The notes under the pieces are model-generated. The model was not told the origin of the DNA. It searched no databases and saw only the letters and a program-made list of their open reading frames with translations. 44,752 nucleotides of DNA from a virus. The stretch spans positions 1 through 44,752 of IMG/VR virus record IMGVR_UViG_3300017971_000410; one strand, given 5' to 3'. The position numbers and the translations under genes are program-made. Numbering within the stretch: position 1 is the first letter of the stretch; every line of letters begins with the position of its first letter. This document shows positions 36,549 through 43,794 of this stretch, piece after piece.

Positions 36549-36917
36549 ATGCTATCAATCACAAAACTATTTCGATTCTCAGCCAGCCATCAACTCTATA
36601 ACCATAACGGGAAGTGCCATAGGTTGCATGGTCACTCATACCTGCTTGAGATAACGATTGAAGGAAGACGGAAGATAAATGATACAAGAGCTCCCGACTA
36701 TGGCATGATTATGGATTTTGGTAAGCTGAAAAAAATTGTAAATGATCATGTGATAGACAAGCTGGATCATTCACATCTCAATGACTTCGTATTCACTCCA
36801 ACCGCAGAAAATCTTACTTTTTGGATCGCTAATCAACTGTATGCACATATCGACGGATTAAAAAGAGTGAGGCTATGGGAAGAGATGGGATCGGCTTGCT
36901 GCACATGGGAAAGCTAA
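36549..36917 (+). CDS. queD: 6-carboxy-5,6,7,8-tetrahydropterin synthase QueD
   Basis: 122 residues, the usual QueD length. FSASHQL (His14), LHGHSY (His27, His29) give the zinc site; Cys23 in NGKCHR is the catalytic Cys; MIMDFGKLK, LDHSHLND and PTAENL complete the family pattern, and the conserved Glu is in RLWEEMGSACC. It converts 7,8-dihydroneopterin triphosphate to 6-carboxytetrahydropterin, step two of 7-deazaguanine synthesis. First gene of the modification operon. Confidence 0.9.
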   Translation: MLSITKLFRFSASHQLYNHNGKCHRLHGHSYLLEITIEGRRKINDTRAPDYGMIMDFGKLKKIVNDHVIDKLDHSHLNDFVFTPTAENLTFWIANQLYAHIDGLKRVRLWEEMGSACCTWES

Positions 36918-36923
36918 AATATT

Positions 36924-37415
36924 ATGGTTGCTGAGAAGAAATATAAAGTGATCAAATTAGAAAGTGATAGATCACCATGCAATCATTGTAGATTCAAGGA
37001 TATCGATAAGAATATAACTACATGCCTCTCATGTAAGAAGAGAGAGAAATATGCAGGAACCATAGATCCTGAAAACATCTGCCGCCGTTGGGTATCGTCC
37101 TATAGTGGAAGATGGGAAAAAGAAGAGGAAGAAAATAGAAAAATAGGGCGAAAGAAGATAGTGGTTGATCGGATATTAAAAGGTAGAGTGATTGATTTTT
37201 CAAGCGAGTATTGTGATGAGAAGTTTGATATGGAATTGAGCATTATCATTGACGATACAAGATTTAAGGGTAGAAAAATAGCCTCTTATCGCTACCAATT
37301 GATAAGAGCAATTAAATCTCGCCTCCGTCTTAATCACGCAACAATTGCCAGGTGCTTAGGGATGAAGTATCATACCGTGAATAATATAATGGCAAGGGAT
37401 AGGATTACTAAGTGA
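36924..37415 (+). CDS. Zinc-finger plus DnaA-type HTH protein
   Basis: 163 residues. The N-terminal module Cys19, Cys22, Cys34, Cys37 (PCNHCRFKDIDK) matches the 7868-8104 protein. A charged middle (GRWEKEEEENRKIGRKK) leads to a C-terminal helical domain (YQLIRAIKSRLRLNHATIAR, LGMKYHTVNNIMAR) that resembles the DnaA domain IV HTH. A DNA-binding regulator or a factor tying modification to DNA is possible. It lies between queD and queE. Confidence 0.55.
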   Translation: MVAEKKYKVIKLESDRSPCNHCRFKDIDKNITTCLSCKKREKYAGTIDPENICRRWVSSYSGRWEKEEEENRKIGRKKIVVDRILKGRVIDFSSEYCDEKFDMELSIIIDDTRFKGRKIASYRYQLIRAIKSRLRLNHATIARCLGMKYHTVNNIMARDRITK

Positions 37416-37609
37416 AAATCTATTTTGCGGGCAATCTTGCTGATAATACAAGAATTAAAAAAGCCCATCTATTAGTTAAGTATAGATTATTGAGTTATTA
37501 CTTCATTAAATATGACCAATTCAAAGTTAAAGAAGAATTTGAATTGATTTCAAAAAGGAATCAAAAATGCAGCAAAAAATCGCAATCAACGAAATCTTCA
37601 CCAGCATAG
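37412..37609 (+). CDS. Small MKIYxAG-type protein 1, GTG start
   Basis: 65 residues starting MKIYFAGNLADNTRIKKAHL and containing YRLLSYYFIKY. The same pattern (MxIYxAG then LxSxYY) occurs in the products of 43409 and 43603. The N-terminus looks like the first strand of a nucleoside-2-deoxyribosyltransferase-like Rossmann fold, but the protein is too short for a full domain. The GTG overlaps the upstream stop. Its tail overlaps queE by 43 bp. Confidence 0.45.
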   Translation: MKIYFAGNLADNTRIKKAHLLVKYRLLSYYFIKYDQFKVKEEFELISKRNQKCSKKSQSTKSSPA

Positions 37610-38256
37610 ACGGTGAAGTGAATAGATATGGTCAGGGTGGGTTGACAACCTTCATCCGTTTTTCTGGCTGTAGCCTCCGCTGCCCGTATTGCGACACAAA
37701 GCAGGCGCAGAACAAATTGTCTGGCGCCCTGATGACAATTGATGAAATAATTCAGCAAATCAAAACGCCAAGGGTGACGATAACGGGTGGGGAGCCGCTT
37801 GAGCAGATTGAAGGTTTTAAAACTCTGATGTACCACCTCCTATCTCCTTTTGATTCGGAATACCTTGTATCAATAGAAACCAATGGTACAATTGAAATCC
37901 CTTTTGATGAATTTCTGTATGCAGGAAGACGGATTGGTTGGGTAATCGATTACAAGCTTGATTATGATACCATTTCACCATATCGGAATTTTAAGAATGC
38001 TGGTAAGGGTGATTGGATTAAGATTATTATTGGTAATAACGATAGAAAAGATCCAATTCCTAAAACAGTCAAGGATTATCAGCTTGCCAAAGATGCTTTC
38101 AATAACTTTAGAAAGCTTGGTACGAAGGCCAGATTCGCCATCGGTTTCGTTAATCCTAAAAGAGACGCAAAGCATGTGGTTAAATGGTTAGTGGATGATC
38201 AGATATTTGATATCCATTTAAACATCCAGCTTCATAAATTTATTGATATGAAGTGA
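37567..38256 (+). CDS. queE: 7-carboxy-7-deazaguanine synthase QueE
   Basis: 229 residues. SGCSLRCPYCDT carries the radical SAM cluster Cys35, Cys39 and Cys42; VTITGGEPL binds SAM; the N-terminal INEIFTSIDGE and the terminal IQLHKFID are family marks. It rearranges 6-carboxytetrahydropterin into 7-carboxy-7-deazaguanine (CDG). The length and Cys spacing are normal, so it should be active. Confidence 0.9.
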   Translation: MQQKIAINEIFTSIDGEVNRYGQGGLTTFIRFSGCSLRCPYCDTKQAQNKLSGALMTIDEIIQQIKTPRVTITGGEPLEQIEGFKTLMYHLLSPFDSEYLVSIETNGTIEIPFDEFLYAGRRIGWVIDYKLDYDTISPYRNFKNAGKGDWIKIIIGNNDRKDPIPKTVKDYQLAKDAFNNFRKLGTKARFAIGFVNPKRDAKHVVKWLVDDQIFDIHLNIQLHKFIDMK

Positions 38257-38356: not shown

Positions 38357-38893
38357 ATGAAAAAGAAAGACGTAACAAAGGAAAAACTGGTAAAGGTGGT
38401 TGAAGAAATGAATACCATACTTGAGCTTGAACCGCCTATCGAAACTGAAGGTAAAGGGATCACAAAAGCCAAGCTGATTGACGAAATCGAAGAAACCGCT
38501 GAACACTGCTTCAAGCCCGGTGATGTGATCAGCCCCGAAACCCAGGAAGTTTTGAAGGCCCTTGAAATCCCGTTTCCTGATCAAGCTGATGAAGTGGACG
38601 AATCCCAGGATGAAGAAGCCGCCGAACCACCCAAAACTGAGAAAAAGGAAAAGGTGAAGAAAGAGAAGAAAGAGAAGGTAAAGAAAACAAACAGACTGAT
38701 GGCGACCATCGATGCCGTAGCTGTCCTTGGGCTGGACGCCGAAGATGATGAACTTGCAAAAAAAGCCAGTGAGATCTATCTCAAAAACGGCGGTAAGGAT
38801 GTCGGTGATAAGGAAACTAAGCAAGCCATGTGGTGGGTGAAGAACTTCCGTCAAGTCACCGCCGCAATGAAGGAGCGTGGAGTAACTGTTTAG
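38357..38893 (+). CDS. Hypothetical protein with Lys/Glu linker
   Basis: 178 residues. An N-terminal helical domain (KLVKVVEEMNTILELEPPI, KAKLIDEIEETAEHC) is joined by a Lys/Glu-rich linker (KTEKKEKVKKEKKEKVKKT) to a C-terminal domain (MATIDAVAVLGLDAEDDEL, MWWVKNFRQVTAAMKERGV). Such two-domain proteins with basic linkers occur near phage replication and recombination genes. Function unknown. GGGAG precedes the ATG. Confidence 0.55.
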   Translation: MKKKDVTKEKLVKVVEEMNTILELEPPIETEGKGITKAKLIDEIEETAEHCFKPGDVISPETQEVLKALEIPFPDQADEVDESQDEEAAEPPKTEKKEKVKKEKKEKVKKTNRLMATIDAVAVLGLDAEDDELAKKASEIYLKNGGKDVGDKETKQAMWWVKNFRQVTAAMKERGVTV

Positions 38894-38907
38894 CAAAGGT
38901 TGATAAA

Positions 38908-39465
38908 TTGAATTTGATTAAAATAGAAAGTATGTGGAAAGATCTTCTCTCGGAAATCGGTGACGATCCTTCGAGAGAAGGTCTTATTCGTACCCCTTAT
39001 CGTATTGCGAAAGCATGGTGGGAATTGTTTTCAGGGTACCGCGATAAGCCCCCAAAGATTACCACTTTCAAAGAACAGTGCAAAGGTTTGATCATAGACA
39101 GAGGGTACTTCTTTTCATTCTGTGAACATCATGTCTTACCATTCTTCGGCGATTATTATTTTGGTTACATACCAAGAAATAACATGATAATCGGCGCGAG
39201 TAAGATAGGTAGAACTATTGATCATTTTTCTGCCAGACTTCAAGTGGCCGAGAGGATATGCTGTCAAGTCGCCGATTATATAGATAGTGAGGCAGATACG
39301 AACGGTATAATATTGATTATGACTGGGCGGCATCTTTGTAAAGAAATGCGCGGTATCAAAAAATACGATTCTATATTTGAAGCTAGTGAAGCTAGAGGTT
39401 GTTTTCTGAAAAATACCAATGGATGTAAAGACGAGTTCCTCCTTAGAATTAATTCAAAACTATAA
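38908..39465 (+). CDS. folE: GTP cyclohydrolase I FolE
   Basis: 185 residues from a TTG with AAAGG 8 bp upstream; an ATG at 38932 is the alternative. Zinc ligands are Cys72 and His75 in FCEHHVLPF and Cys144 in GRHLCKEMRG. IIGASKIGR and FSARLQVAER are the conserved core. It converts GTP to dihydroneopterin triphosphate, the first step of the queD-queE pathway. A phage copy boosts precursor supply for DNA modification. The preceding gene ends 14 bp upstream. Confidence 0.9.
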   Translation: MNLIKIESMWKDLLSEIGDDPSREGLIRTPYRIAKAWWELFSGYRDKPPKITTFKEQCKGLIIDRGYFFSFCEHHVLPFFGDYYFGYIPRNNMIIGASKIGRTIDHFSARLQVAERICCQVADYIDSEADTNGIILIMTGRHLCKEMRGIKKYDSIFEASEARGCFLKNTNGCKDEFLLRINSKL

Positions 39466-39470
39466 CCACT

Positions 39471-39809
39471 ATGCCATTTAAAACATTCATCGTCATAAAG
39501 ACACAATTTGAAGCCATACACAATTGGCCTGATTGTGGTATTGAATCTGTAAGCTACCTGCGGAATCCACATAGACACATTTTTCATGTTGAGATGAAGT
39601 GGATTGTTGAGGGTTTAAATCGTGATATTGAATTCATCGACCAAAAGCATAAAGTTGATGATTTTATCCATAAAAAATTGGCATATAAAAATATTGGTGC
39701 AATGAGTTGTGAGATGATCGCGTCAAGATTGATGACAAAATTCAATGCTCGCTTCGTGAGTGTTTTTGAAGATGGCGAAAATGGTGCAGAGATATGTATG
39801 ACTACATAA
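39471..39809 (+). CDS. Second PTPS/QueD-fold protein
   Basis: 112 residues. FEAIHNW (His17) and NPHRHIFHVE (His34, His36) match the three zinc-binding His of the 6-pyruvoyl-tetrahydropterin-synthase fold. SCEMIAS and FEDGENGAEI replace the catalytic region of QueD, and no Cys sits at the QueD catalytic position. A function different from QueD is therefore likely: another pterin or deazaguanine step, for example decarboxylation or hydrolysis of an intermediate. Follows folE by 5 bp. Confidence 0.6.
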   Translation: MPFKTFIVIKTQFEAIHNWPDCGIESVSYLRNPHRHIFHVEMKWIVEGLNRDIEFIDQKHKVDDFIHKKLAYKNIGAMSCEMIASRLMTKFNARFVSVFEDGENGAEICMTT

Positions 39810-41089
39810 TTATCGACCCTGCCTCAACTGAATTCAATCGAGGTAGTTTTTGTTACCTTCCATATATACTGTACTCTGCACTTACTAAGAGTGGTGCAAA
39901 GGTAGCAATATATGAAAATTTTACTGCCGCAGACATTGATTGCCTCCCTAAAGCAAGCCGTTATCTTATATCAATATGGTCTTATCCACAGATCGATACC
40001 GCACTTGTCATAGATCGTTTCCTGGAAGGAAATAAATCATTTTTTGGTTACTTTCCCTTGATAGATCATTTGAAGTTGGATGAATTTATTTTCCCAGATC
40101 ATATGATACTGTCTGGAATAGAAAACTACCCACTATATTATAGCGACTTCAACTTCATCCTACTCTCAGATTGCGACATGCACTTGAAAAAATATAGTGG
40201 ACAAGTCTATCCTTTGTTTACATCATACGGATGCCCTAATGGTTGTTCGTTCTGCCCCAGTACAGTCAATTGTGAAAAGCGCCGTATCATCATACCGCTT
40301 GAAAAGGTAGAAAAAATCATCTACTACTGCAATGGAATAGGAATCCATAACATTCATTTTACTGATGAGGATTTCTTCTTCAATATCGACAGGGCGCATT
40401 CGATACTTAAAATATTTGAAAAGCTGGATACTGATTTCCAGTTGATATCACTTGGTAGTGCTGTAAAGGTACGGTCATATATAAAAAAGTATGGCGAGAA
40501 TACGTTGGCAGCATCAGGTATGAAACTGATTGAGGTTGGCCTCGAGACAGCCGATTCAGATTTGGCCACCTCCATGCATAAACCTGGGCATAAGAGTTGT
40601 ACATGGCTTGCCGAAAATGCTAAGACACCAATATTCTGGTTGACCATGACCTTCTTTCCTGGAGAGACGATACACTCACTCAATCTTACTGGAAGATTTC
40701 TAAAGAAATATGGCTATAAGCAAGACGAACTCTACGGTAGAATAAGAACGAATAGTACAGTTGGAGGGTTGGGACAATTTTTTCAGTTCTATCACGGTAC
40801 GCCATTTTATTCAGACAAGGATTTTCTAGGTATGTCTCTGAGTGATTGCCCTATTCGTCTTCTACCAAGCTTTGTTCCCTATTCTTTCCTTGGATCAAAA
40901 ATAGAGTCCATTGGTGATGCCAGTGATGCAATTGACTGGTTTAAGTTGTATAACCTCCACCCTGAGATGATAAAGCTCACAAAAGGGAATTGTATAGATG
41001 AATATGTCAACAAATATAAGGGCTATATGAGGGTAGCTGACATACTTACCTATCTTGCAATCTGCGCAAGGCTTGGAGTTATAATATGA
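39794..41089 (+). CDS. Radical SAM enzyme of the DNA-modification locus
   Basis: 431 residues. Residues 1-130 form an alpha/beta domain where B12-binding radical SAM proteins carry cobalamin, but no DxHxxG motif is present. The cluster motif is GCPNGCSFCPS (Cys147, Cys151, Cys154). IHFTDEDFFFNIDRA, LIEVGLETADSDLA and FWLTMTFFPGET follow as in the B12-type radical SAM/elongator fold. It probably performs a C-C, C-S or methyl-transfer type step on the modified base or sugar. Overlaps its neighbours by 16 and 4 bp. Confidence 0.75.
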   Translation: MYDYIIIDPASTEFNRGSFCYLPYILYSALTKSGAKVAIYENFTAADIDCLPKASRYLISIWSYPQIDTALVIDRFLEGNKSFFGYFPLIDHLKLDEFIFPDHMILSGIENYPLYYSDFNFILLSDCDMHLKKYSGQVYPLFTSYGCPNGCSFCPSTVNCEKRRIIIPLEKVEKIIYYCNGIGIHNIHFTDEDFFFNIDRAHSILKIFEKLDTDFQLISLGSAVKVRSYIKKYGENTLAASGMKLIEVGLETADSDLATSMHKPGHKSCTWLAENAKTPIFWLTMTFFPGETIHSLNLTGRFLKKYGYKQDELYGRIRTNSTVGGLGQFFQFYHGTPFYSDKDFLGMSLSDCPIRLLPSFVPYSFLGSKIESIGDASDAIDWFKLYNLHPEMIKLTKGNCIDEYVNKYKGYMRVADILTYLAICARLGVII

Positions 41090-42117
41090 CCATTTGGAAT
41101 GTCCCAATAGAAAGTCTTGAGGAAAGGTACAGCTCGCAATGGGGACGCTGGTTTCATATTGAATTCACAAGGCTTGGCATCGAATATAGAGCCATTCCTG
41201 GCATTCGTCTGACAGACAAAATAACCAAAGGTTCATTTCTTGATATATGTGGAACAAATTATTTCAAAGCGAACCAACTCAAGGTAATATCTTCATTGAT
41301 GTTTGAAGGGCAAGTAAAAGACGGTGATATTTTTCTGTTTCATGACCTATGGTTCCCAGGCATTGAGATGTTGGCTTATATGAGAGATGGGCTTGGAATC
41401 GATTTCAAGATATGCGGAATACTTCATGCAGGCACTTATGATCCGTATGATTTTCTTTCAAAGAAAGGAATGGCGAAGTGGGGGGAGAAATTAGAGGAAT
41501 CATGGTTCAGAATAGCTGATATGATATTTGTTGCTACTCAATGGCACCGACATCTATTATACAGTAACCGGATCGTAGAATGGGATAAAATAAAAGTGAC
41601 AGGCTTACCTATTTATTTCGACTTTGCCCCTAATGAATTACCAGAAAAAGAAAATATTATCGTGTTCCCGCATAGGTTAGATGAAGAAAAAAATCCTCAA
41701 TTGTTCGATTTATTTCAGACAAGATTTCAAGAAGACAAATCAATCAAGGACTCATGGCAATTTTTAAAAACAATGGAGCATTGGAAGGGCAAAAAAGGTT
41801 ATTATGATATGCTATCAAGATCGAAAATAGTTGTCAGCTTCGCCGACCAGGAAACGTGGGGAATAGCTATGCAAGAAGCCCTCTTTCTTGGTTGCTTCCC
41901 AGTCATCCCAGATCGCCTGAGTTACACTGAAATGTATGAGCCTATGTTTAGATACTCTTCCTATGCTGAAGCCATGACTCTGATTAAATATGGCATGGAG
42001 AAGTATGAATCAAAAGAGGTACAAGATACAATAAGGCTAAATAAAGAAAAGCTTATAGGCGAAGGAAAAGATGCAATAAGGAGGATGATATGCGAGATGG
42101 AAATGATGAGAAAATAG
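41086..42117 (+). CDS. GT4-like glycosyltransferase of the DNA-modification locus
   Basis: 343 residues. The N-terminal half (VPIESLEERYSSQWGRWF, FLFHDLWFPG, GILHAGTYDPYDFL) and the C-terminal GT-B half (FPHRLDEEKNPQLF, SFADQETWGIAMQEALFLG) fit retaining GT4 enzymes; the E-x7-E motif is in ETWGIAMQEA. It lies between the radical SAM gene and dpdA with overlaps on both sides, so glycosylation of the modified DNA base is the favoured, but unproven, role. Confidence 0.7.
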   Translation: MTIWNVPIESLEERYSSQWGRWFHIEFTRLGIEYRAIPGIRLTDKITKGSFLDICGTNYFKANQLKVISSLMFEGQVKDGDIFLFHDLWFPGIEMLAYMRDGLGIDFKICGILHAGTYDPYDFLSKKGMAKWGEKLEESWFRIADMIFVATQWHRHLLYSNRIVEWDKIKVTGLPIYFDFAPNELPEKENIIVFPHRLDEEKNPQLFDLFQTRFQEDKSIKDSWQFLKTMEHWKGKKGYYDMLSRSKIVVSFADQETWGIAMQEALFLGCFPVIPDRLSYTEMYEPMFRYSSYAEAMTLIKYGMEKYESKEVQDTIRLNKEKLIGEGKDAIRRMICEMEMMRK

Positions 42118-43199
42118 ACCTGTTTCTCGACTGCGGAGCGGTGTCAATTTATAACAAGTTGGTGCGGAAAGGTGGTAGAACAGAAAGTGGCGTCCATACA
42201 GGCGCATATTTCAAAGACCGCAAGCATGATGATTTCAGCTACATACACACCAAAGAGTACCAGGAGTATAGAGACAGTTACATTGAATTTATCAAGAAAA
42301 ATAAGAAACACCTAACCGTATACTCCAACCTTGATGTGATCAATAATGCAGAGCTGACATGGGAAAATCAAAAGATAATGGAAGGCGAAGGATTATCGCC
42401 TATTCCAGTCTACCACATCAGCAACAAGCCTGGTGATACTAAGTGGTTAAAAAAGTACATTGACAAAGGGTATGATTACATCGCACTTGGCGGTGGTTAT
42501 CCAAACCCGCCAAAGGAGACATTCACAATCTATGATCGAATATGGAACGATATACTGACCGATGACAAAGGTATGCCAATCGTCAAAGTTCACGGCTATG
42601 CAGTCACTAGCCTTAAAACTATGTTAAGATACCCTTGGTATTCGGTTGACTCAACCAGTTGGGTTATGACTGCAAGAATGGGAAGTATTTATATTCCAAA
42701 ATCTAAAAATGGAAAATATATCTATGATATTGATCCATTTAAAATATTAGTTTCTAATCGCAGCCCAAGACTATGTGACAGCCAATGGCATATTGCACAC
42801 ATAAGCCGGCAGAATAAAGAACTTCATAAATATATATTGGATTATTTTGACTTCAAAGGATTCATACTAGGTGAAAGCGATTTTAAGGTCGTTGACGACA
42901 GTTACAAGCCAGACAAGAATGAAAGATTGATGCCAAACGATGTCATAAAAAAATGGAGGATGATGGGAGACAAATCAAATGAGATCATAAAAGATAAATT
43001 CAATGTTCTCCCTAGCGATGGAGAAAAAATGGTTGAAATAATAAAAAGCCCAGGGCTCTGCAATAGTTATATATCAAGAGATGAGGCTTGTATCATATAC
43101 TTCACCAATCTTCAAAATGCACTGCCTGAATGGCCCACTCCATTTAAACTAAAAAAGAAAACAAAATCAAAAGGATTATTTAAGGTATACAAGACATGA
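42090..43199 (+). CDS. dpdA: DpdA-like DNA 7-deazaguanine transglycosylase
   Basis: 369 residues. FLDCGAVSIYNKL, YIEFIKKN, TVYSNLDVINNAELTW and YDYIALGGGYPNP follow the TIM-barrel pattern of tRNA-guanine transglycosylase relatives, of the kind found in phage DpdA proteins. DpdA exchanges guanine in DNA for a 7-deazaguanine base. The catalytic Asp is probably within the SNLDVI strand or a later one; I cannot assign it firmly. Overlaps the glycosyltransferase by 28 bp. Confidence 0.7.
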   Translation: MRDGNDEKIDLFLDCGAVSIYNKLVRKGGRTESGVHTGAYFKDRKHDDFSYIHTKEYQEYRDSYIEFIKKNKKHLTVYSNLDVINNAELTWENQKIMEGEGLSPIPVYHISNKPGDTKWLKKYIDKGYDYIALGGGYPNPPKETFTIYDRIWNDILTDDKGMPIVKVHGYAVTSLKTMLRYPWYSVDSTSWVMTARMGSIYIPKSKNGKYIYDIDPFKILVSNRSPRLCDSQWHIAHISRQNKELHKYILDYFDFKGFILGESDFKVVDDSYKPDKNERLMPNDVIKKWRMMGDKSNEIIKDKFNVLPSDGEKMVEIIKSPGLCNSYISRDEACIIYFTNLQNALPEWPTPFKLKKKTKSKGLFKVYKT

Positions 43200-43408: not shown

Positions 43409-43603
43409 TTGAAGATATATCTTGCTGGTTACGGGCACCAGATAGAAAAAACCCCATTTGTGAAGGAGCTTGAAAAGGATTGGCACTGCCTTTTGTCATA
43501 TTATTTCTTTAGCCCCAAGAATGTTGACAAAGGGATGATGAATAGGTTTGATTACATATGCAAAAAGAAAAAGCAGATTAGAGAACAAAAAGGCAGAAGT
43601 TAA
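43409..43603 (+). CDS. Small MKIYxAG-type protein 2, TTG start
   Basis: 64 residues: MKIYLAGYGHQIEKTPFVKE, then CLLSYYFFSPK and a basic tail. The TTG has AAGGTGAG about 8 bp upstream. Homologous in pattern to 37412-37609. Its stop overlaps the next ATG (TAATG). Confidence 0.45.
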   Translation: MKIYLAGYGHQIEKTPFVKELEKDWHCLLSYYFFSPKNVDKGMMNRFDYICKKKKQIREQKGRS

Positions 43604-43794
43604 TGATTATATACATAGCTGGACCAAGACCTGACACCATTAATATGATGATGAAGAGAACTGATTACATCCTCACTTCTTTCTACTACCAAAGCATAGC
43701 AACATCAGAAATAAAACCTCTACAAATAATCAAGCAGCACAACGAAAGGATAAAAAATGAAGCTAAAAAGAACCGCGCTCATCCAAGCACTTGA
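43603..43794 (+). CDS. Small MKIYxAG-type protein 3
   Basis: 63 residues: MIIYIAGPRPDTINMMMKRT, then YILTSFYYQ and a basic tail. Third member of the small family in this locus. Its 3' end overlaps the sliding-clamp gene by 38 bp. Confidence 0.45.
   Translation: MIIYIAGPRPDTINMMMKRTDYILTSFYYQSIATSEIKPLQIIKQHNERIKNEAKKNRAHPST

Follow-up and report, generated by a model that had tools for sequence, protein, structure and literature searches.

We analyzed the IMG/VR virus record IMGVR_UViG_3300017971_000410 over its whole length (44,752 bases, here called the window), and we predict, as a fairly probable reading, that one of its operons serves to place a glycosylated 7-deazaguanine in the phage DNA, the sugar of which would be tailored by radical chemistry. 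The genes of a glycosyltransferase (GT) and of a radical S-adenosylmethionine (SAM) protein (rSAM) stand there among genes for 7-deazaguanine synthesis (folE, queD, and queE), together with a gene of the DNA guanine transglycosylase family (dpdA) and one for a small protein with a QueD/PTPS fold, phrog_17812 (P17812). As GT and rSAM travel with this 7-deazaguanine kit in many viruses, the phage DNA probably bears a sugar on an altered base.

Association of GT, P17812, and rSAM with 7-deazaguanine genes

The GT module is common, as at least 524 viral contigs of IMG/VR encode a GT relative, and at least 587 P17812 relatives were found in the same database; the 80 best of each were examined. All 80 GT-selected loci had FolE, QueE, QueD, or DpdA nearby, with P17812 in 76, FolE in 60, QueE in 50, QueD in 22, and one of three DpdA types in 71. 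When P17812 was used for the selection, GT was present in 46 of 80 loci. A phiST-like DpdA protein, which we take to be the one named DpdA3, occurred in 21 of the 34 GT-less loci of this set, and all 21 DpdA3 loci were without GT, while other DpdA types were found in 44 of the 46 GT-bearing loci, so the distribution of GT follows certain DpdA types rather than P17812 alone. Among 50,697 phage records, 20 contained GT (by tblastn), 21 contained P17812, and 16 contained both, a co-occurrence seen in five of six lineages by our own count (hypergeometric p of 1e-54, kinship being ignored). GT lies among folE and/or queE genes in five lineages, namely, ACP17, the PA5oct/Paride group (via PAC2), Phosso, X1, and BUCT-ZZ01, and no relatives of it were found in the plasmids scanned.

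Single-sequence scans of IMG/VR with the window rSAM or GT gave no match, nor did tblastn of rSAM in the phage records, and the relatives came from alignment-based scans. For rSAM, an alignment of four rSAMs recovered 25 viral loci and one locus of a Bacillota metagenome-assembled genome (MAG), and these 26 relatives rule out that the protein is unique to the window. GT is the next recognized gene after rSAM in 26 of 26 relatives (the 25 loci L173 to L197 and L010), with small unrecognized open reading frames (ORFs) in between in some of them, and the gene order is QueD-QueE-(x)-FolE-P17812-rSAM-GT-DpdA. The 25 loci contain GT (25), P17812 (24), FolE (23), DpdA (22), QueE (20), and QueD (19), and many of the misses fall at contig ends. 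According to the ORF calls, P17812 directly precedes rSAM in 24 of the 25, and the remaining one, L183, has P17812 by whole-record search. This set includes copies of other loci (L174 is the L008 contig and L176 the L011 contig) and look-alike groups (L181/L182/L184, L185/L186/L189, and L179/L197). The distances of rSAM and GT correlate (r of 0.82, calculated without L182, L184, L186, L189, L193, and L197), although the common descent of the phages would be enough to explain it.

The initial annotation had tied both families to DpdA-based modification, as opposed to surface-glycan clusters, and the survey agrees with it, as deazaguanine genes accompany 80 of 80 GT loci and 26 of 26 rSAM relatives. 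It had also presented rSAM and GT as a pair; they are neighbors in all 26 relatives, but the pair is not the unit, since elsewhere rSAM is missing or is replaced by a second, BtrN-like rSAM. The window rSAM is one branch of the module formed by GT, P17812, and DpdA, the distribution of which is much broader.

Predicted activities of the operon proteins

(i) Glycosyltransferase. Judged from its structural model, the window GT is a predicted GT4-type retaining glycosyltransferase. On its own, the sequence gives only subthreshold Pfam matches (Glycos_transf_1, 25.1 bits versus 26.4). In the AlphaFold model, predicted with high confidence (pLDDT 95.9), the fold is GT-B/GT4 with two Rossmann domains, and the closest folds are MshA (Z of 26.9) and BshA (26.3), over 301 to 323 residues. 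GT4 retaining enzymes have an Arg/Lys pair and an E-x7-E motif; in 73 sequences, R197, K202, and E264 are invariant and E256, which opens the E256-x7-E264 motif, is kept in at least 90%.

(ii) Radical SAM protein of the window. The protein matches Pfam Radical_SAM (E of 2.7e-11, 44.4 bits versus a cutoff of 29.5), and the cysteines of its CxxxCxxC motif (C147, C151, and C154) are invariant in an alignment of 22 sequences, the 21 others being 40 to 55% identical to it. In the structural model made from these 22 sequences (pLDDT 93.4), the best structural match among the 50 best PDB matches looked at is AprD4 (Z of 23.9, rmsd of 3.3, 354 residues aligned), with a full-length alignment at 14% identity, followed by MgmA (Z of 19.8), CysS (19.5), TsrM (19.2), OxsB (18.2), and MiaB (17.7). 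Foldseek likewise puts AprD4 first by E value, and CysS is second by profile (5.4e-07). The NCBIfam cutoffs are reached neither for AprD4 (NF033070, 30.3 bits versus 500) nor for PhpK (TIGR04479, 37.2 bits versus 600). In MiaB/RimO methylthiotransferases, a second cluster is served by three cysteines near the N terminus; rSAM has just two conserved cysteines ahead of C147, namely, C20 (nearly) and C127, and does not fit this class.

AprD4, of the apramycin pathway, is described in PMC5461906 as a radical SAM diol dehydratase that acts on paromamine with the reductase AprD3, and BtrN, of the butirosin pathway, in PMC9012708 as a twitch-domain radical SAM dehydrogenase that oxidizes 2-deoxy-scyllo-inosamine. 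As the substrates of both are sugars or sugar-like, the radical step named in the initial annotation has the sugar, rather than the base, as its more likely target, and rSAM would probably be a sugar-tailoring enzyme.

(iii) Second, BtrN-like rSAM and sugar genes. In a number of other loci, L009, L018, and L048 included, the slot between P17812 and GT is taken by an rSAM of a second, unrelated family that has a Pfam SPASM domain; its placement varies, and it comes after GT in several loci. BtrN is its closest PDB sequence (profile, 1.8e-23). Eighty of its 225 relatives were examined, comprising 13 orthologs, after which the similarity falls from about 1e-42 to 2e-13, and 67 remote SPASM rSAM loci as a control that was not selected for deazaguanine genes. 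The orthologs have GT and DpdA in 13 of 13 cases and P17812 in 11 of 13, while GT, P17812, FolE, and DpdA were each found in 0 of the 67 control loci, QueD in 1, and the window rSAM model in 2. QueE matches in 37 of the 67 were set aside, as they look like cross-matches between rSAM proteins; an iterated hidden Markov model (HMM) of the BtrN-like cluster also drifted into QueE, and a strict model was used instead.

A quick tree of 116 GTs (excluding L013, near-copies, and lengths outside chosen ranges) contains a clade of 34 rows (support of 97), with 21 partners of the AprD4-like type, 10 of the BtrN-like type, and 3 of neither. Within it, 27 rows (support of 86) mix 21 AprD4-like and 6 BtrN-like partners, several inner branches having modest support. 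As both kinds of partner are mixed in one GT clade, one rSAM type seems to take the place of the other. In large phages, nucleoside diphosphate (NDP)-sugar genes follow or flank GT. An NAD epimerase gene occurs in 19 GT-bearing loci and lies within 2 kb in 17 of them, with a median gap of 3 bp; a DegT aminotransferase gene is this close in 12 of 18 cases, and an alcohol dehydrogenase gene in 13 of 16. These genes fit a sugar of varying identity.

Other arrangements were seen around GT. One viral contig (L013, 996-4753) has three GT-family genes ahead of DpdA, perhaps for a longer glycan, and another, sampled as L097 and L034, has two that are far apart in the tree (long branch). In Xanthomonas phage PhiXhv-15 (L006, 7621-10855), a distant GT relative adjoins a glutamine-fructose-6-phosphate aminotransferase (GFAT) and a deacetylase, which is possibly another sugar-modification cluster. 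A protein family of about 130 to 200 amino acids (aa), c83/c6, lies near GT and was found in 71 loci, 70 of them with GT (members at L083 3605-4045, L089 7339-7779, L001 10323-10721, L004 9504-9935, and L030 5237-5758). It had no Pfam match in the two members searched and no PDB match, was never alongside the AprD4-like rSAM in the loci compared, and is possibly another GT partner.

(iv) P17812 and the absence of QueC. P17812 resembles the QueD profile (hhalign, 88.5% probability) and the PTPS structure PH0634 (E of 0.006) and has an invariant His triad (H17, H34, and H36) and an SCE motif. QueC (PF06508) was absent from the window and from 23 viral rSAM records in a search of 41 records that included one QueC control, PSTCR4 (L010 and L192 lay outside the set), while P17812 was present in 40 of the 41 and missing only from this control. 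QueC matches were confined to PSTCR4, D479 (partial), the MAG, and, weakly, L027 and X1, and phage PAC2, a relative of Paride and PA5oct, was among the records searched; the partial match in D479, which is over the cutoff, and the weak one in L027 count against a strict exclusion between P17812 and QueC. As most records had been chosen for carrying P17812, the survey shows a lack of QueC and is not a full exclusion test. P17812 probably replaces QueC, and it accompanies the absence of QueC, so we discarded the idea of a plain QueD duplicate, as P17812 and QueD occur together in the window, in ACP17, and in BUCT-ZZ01.

The phiST protein CGPG_00067 matches the P17812 HMM (1.7e-34). The DNA of phiST is reportedly fully dDG, and a decarboxylase of 7-carboxy-7-deazaguanine (CDG), DpdL, is said to have been predicted. 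P17812 is likely this predicted CDG decarboxylase. In Chryseobacterium phage MA9V-3 (L171, 6428-7309) and Vibrio phage Bakedbeans (L169, 6212-7363), the P17812 domain forms the C-terminal part of a longer protein. A P17812 relative is also encoded by Faecalibacterium phage Roos (L281, 7004-7312), in a record without a match to the window GT and rSAM.

(v) DpdA. The window DpdA is homologous to known members of the family (phrog_887, 1.3e-33; phage 9g DpdA, 3e-23 over residues 52 to 258), although the NCBIfam DpdA model gives only 12.9 bits against a cutoff of 200. Two catalytic Asp residues are expected in DpdA, as in Tgt, and D14 and D187 are invariant in an alignment of 15 relatives. A profile search of the PDB gave no clear relative, with the DNA-guanine transglycosylase 7ui4 at an E of only 0.79.

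Proposed pathway and alternative readings

FolE, QueD, and QueE make CDG in the established pathway, and they would do so here. As there is no QueC, CDG would not be turned into preQ0 by a phage enzyme; P17812 would probably strip its carboxylate to give 7-deazaguanine, which DpdA, going by its family, would exchange for guanine in the phage DNA. GT, in view of its linkage and fold, would transfer a sugar from a host NDP-sugar onto the base, and rSAM would tailor this sugar by radical chemistry, either after or before the GT step. Dehydration or oxidation seems most likely for rSAM, because its fold is near AprD4 and it is swapped with a BtrN-like enzyme. The bulky final base would shield the phage DNA from restriction.

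Several points weigh against this pathway. P17812 as a decarboxylase would leave a base without an obvious hydroxyl for GT, and the acceptor could be C7, N2, or a handle made by an unseen enzyme, or glycosylation could come ahead of insertion. The sugar-nucleotide genes are those of other phages and are not seen in the window, 3 of the 34 rows of the GT clade have neither rSAM type, and four phage records have GT but no P17812. No AprD3-like reductase was recognized in the operon, for which no AprD3 model was searched, and all the evidence is genomic, coming mostly from uncultured contigs, which are often fragments and in some cases near-copies. A more specific form of the pathway is a C-glycoside, in which P17812 frees C7 by stripping the CDG carboxylate, DpdA inserts 7-deazaguanine, GT joins the sugar directly to C7, and rSAM dehydrates or oxidizes the sugar while it is on the base or in DNA; we put it forward tentatively, as a rather doubtful proposal. 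If it were true, interchangeable AprD4-like and BtrN-like modules would lead to different decorations in different phages, and to our knowledge both a radical-SAM-tailored DNA sugar and a C-C linked natural DNA sugar would be firsts.

GT might instead act on the CDG carboxylate, forming a glycosyl ester, or on another C7 handle. In this reading, P17812 would have an activity other than decarboxylation, for example, reduction to a 7-hydroxymethyl group, which GT would glycosylate as in T4 hydroxymethylcytosine. CDG is indeed the last recognized intermediate without QueC, P17812 has an invariant Cys beside a Glu, and the chemistry of the PTPS-like fold is not fixed. However, P17812 also occurs without GT, with the DpdA3-like protein in 21 of the 34 GT-less loci and in phiST, whose DNA is reportedly fully dDG, and this occurrence points to a decarboxylase, so that we regard the C7 handle as unlikely. 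The chemistry of rSAM may be read differently as well, as that of a cobalamin-dependent methylase of the PhpK/CysS type acting on the base C7 or on a sugar carbon, with GT as proposed above. The NCBIfam PhpK model matches 19 of the 22 rSAM members (best 1e-14) and the AprD4 model 10 of 22 (best 9e-14), all far below the cutoffs; as NCBIfam thus favors the PhpK P-methyltransferase at least as much as AprD4, which also counts against the proposed pathway, methylation has to be reckoned with. CysS, TsrM, MgmA, and OxsB are moreover the next folds (Z of 18 to 20), with CysS second by profile. Against a methylase, AprD4 is ahead by about 4 Z units, by its full-length alignment, and by the Foldseek E value, and the exchange of rSAM for a BtrN-like dehydrogenase at this position agrees better with oxidation or dehydration. 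The region ahead of the first cluster cysteine, with 146 residues and a four-stranded Rossmann-like sheet in the model, is also short for a cobalamin domain. The DxHxxG motif was not seen in the alignment of 22 rSAMs, and the CysS and TsrM folds nonetheless match at a Z of 19. We consider the methylase improbable, if deserving of attention.

One could finally regard rSAM and GT as passengers, a glycan or host-surface gene set placed in the operon by chance, given that GT4 enzymes are mostly surface-glycan enzymes and that the PhiXhv-15 GT adjoins genes other than those for deazaguanine. The linkage in 80 of 80 GT loci and 26 of 26 rSAM relatives and the presence of the same GT with different DpdA types make this very improbable; the correlated rSAM and GT distances argue in the same direction, though shared descent alone could explain them.

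Operon layout and comparison with known systems

The window has terminase, helicase, and primase genes, which indicate a tailed phage, and it is probably a fragment, as it has no terminal repeat and its clamp gene is cut by the contig end. All the genes of Table 1 are on the same strand in the order listed, with the clamp gene marking a replication module that adjoins the operon. The rSAM and GT genes of the initial annotation are present as ORFs, backed by Pfam Radical_SAM and by the GT-B/GT4 model fold, respectively. Its statement that both overlap their neighbors also stands, with overlaps calculated from the coordinates of 16 nt (P17812/rSAM), 4 nt (rSAM/GT, ATGA), and 28 nt (GT/dpdA), but the upstream partner of rSAM is the 112-aa P17812 and not folE. 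A strong Shine-Dalgarno sequence (aaggagg) of dpdA sits within the GT gene, and the overlaps suggest that these genes may be cotranslated, a point that the initial annotation had put more firmly. The GTG start of folE, as listed, overlaps the 178-aa ORF, and the real start may be further downstream. Three small ORFs (63 to 65 aa) flank the operon at 37412-37609, 43409-43603, and 43603-43794, and their proteins open alike (KIYFAG, KIYLAG, and IIYIAG).

Table 1. Genes of the predicted operon and the adjoining clamp gene in the window
Feature	Coordinates	Strand	Basis
queD (6-carboxytetrahydropterin synthase)	36549..36917	+	Pfam PTPS 1.5e-31; NCBIfam QueD 92.5 bits vs cutoff 89.25
163-aa ORF, HTH-like C terminus (weak)	36924..37415	+	No relative among loci tested
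queE (7-carboxy-7-deazaguanine synthase, radical SAM)	37567..38256	+	PHROG QueE-like 1.2e-24; Pfam Radical_SAM
178-aa ORF rich in lysine/glutamate	38357..38893	+	Family searches: no match of weight
folE (GTP cyclohydrolase I)	38830..39465	+	Pfam GTP_cyclohydroI 9e-46
P17812 (phrog_17812), 112 aa, QueD/PTPS fold	39471..39809	+	PHROG 2.5e-24
rSAM, radical SAM protein with reduced Rossmann-like N-terminal domain	39794..41089	+	Pfam Radical_SAM, CxxxCxxC, fold
GT, GT-B fold, predicted GT4-type retaining glycosyltransferase	41086..42117	+	Model fold, catalytic residues
dpdA (DNA guanine transglycosylase family)	42090..43199	+	PHROG queuine tRNA-ribosyltransferase 1.3e-33; tblastn to phage 9g DpdA 3e-23
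Sliding clamp, cut by contig end	43757..44752	+	PHROG DNA polymerase processivity factor 2.4e-30

The prediction is open to direct testing, as the module is present in culturable phages such as PA5oct, Paride, ACP17, Phosso, X1, and BUCT-ZZ01; most of their GT and P17812 genes are annotated as hypothetical. Candidate tools might also come from the operon, in the form of a glycosyltransferase for DNA bases and of radical enzymes with possible activity on nucleoside sugars. The initial annotation knew of no 7-deazaguanine pathway with this pair, and we likewise found no description of glycosylated 7-deazaguanine DNA or of an rSAM/GT pair in the literature searched, a scope that did not take in Cui 2023 and the 2024 MMBR review.

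The 7-deazaguanine bases known from phages carry small groups at C7 (cyano, amide, amidino, aminomethyl, and simple derivatives). A phage glycosyltransferase that decorates a modified base has its analogy in the glucosylated hydroxymethylcytosine of the T4 type and in glycosylated pyrimidines, but the window operon differs in that the base would be a purine analogue brought in by transglycosylation, no hydroxymethylase was seen in it, and rSAM is extra. The phage DpdA pathways of Hutinet 2019, as presented in the main text of PMC6884629, have FolE, QueD, QueE, and a DpdA-family transglycosylase in common with it, whereas the window operon has no QueC and additionally contains P17812, the GT4-type glycosyltransferase, and rSAM; the words "glycosyl" and "radical" are absent from that main text. 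Among enzymes, MshA and BshA share with GT the GT-B fold and the retaining-type catalytic residues at about 11 to 14% identity. AprD4 (PMC5461906) is the nearest fold to the window rSAM over its full length, but the two differ in the low identity, in the score far below the AprD4 cutoff, and in the lack of a recognized AprD3 partner. The likeness to BtrN (PMC9012708) belongs to the second rSAM, with its SPASM-type C terminus, which fills the rSAM slot in other phages, and not to the window rSAM. Set beside these systems, the window operon probably encodes a 7-deazaguanine DNA pathway to which glycosylation and radical tailoring have been added, and, if this is true, a sugar on 7-deazaguanine would join two otherwise separate disguises, base transglycosylation and glycosylation, in a new kind of DNA disguise.

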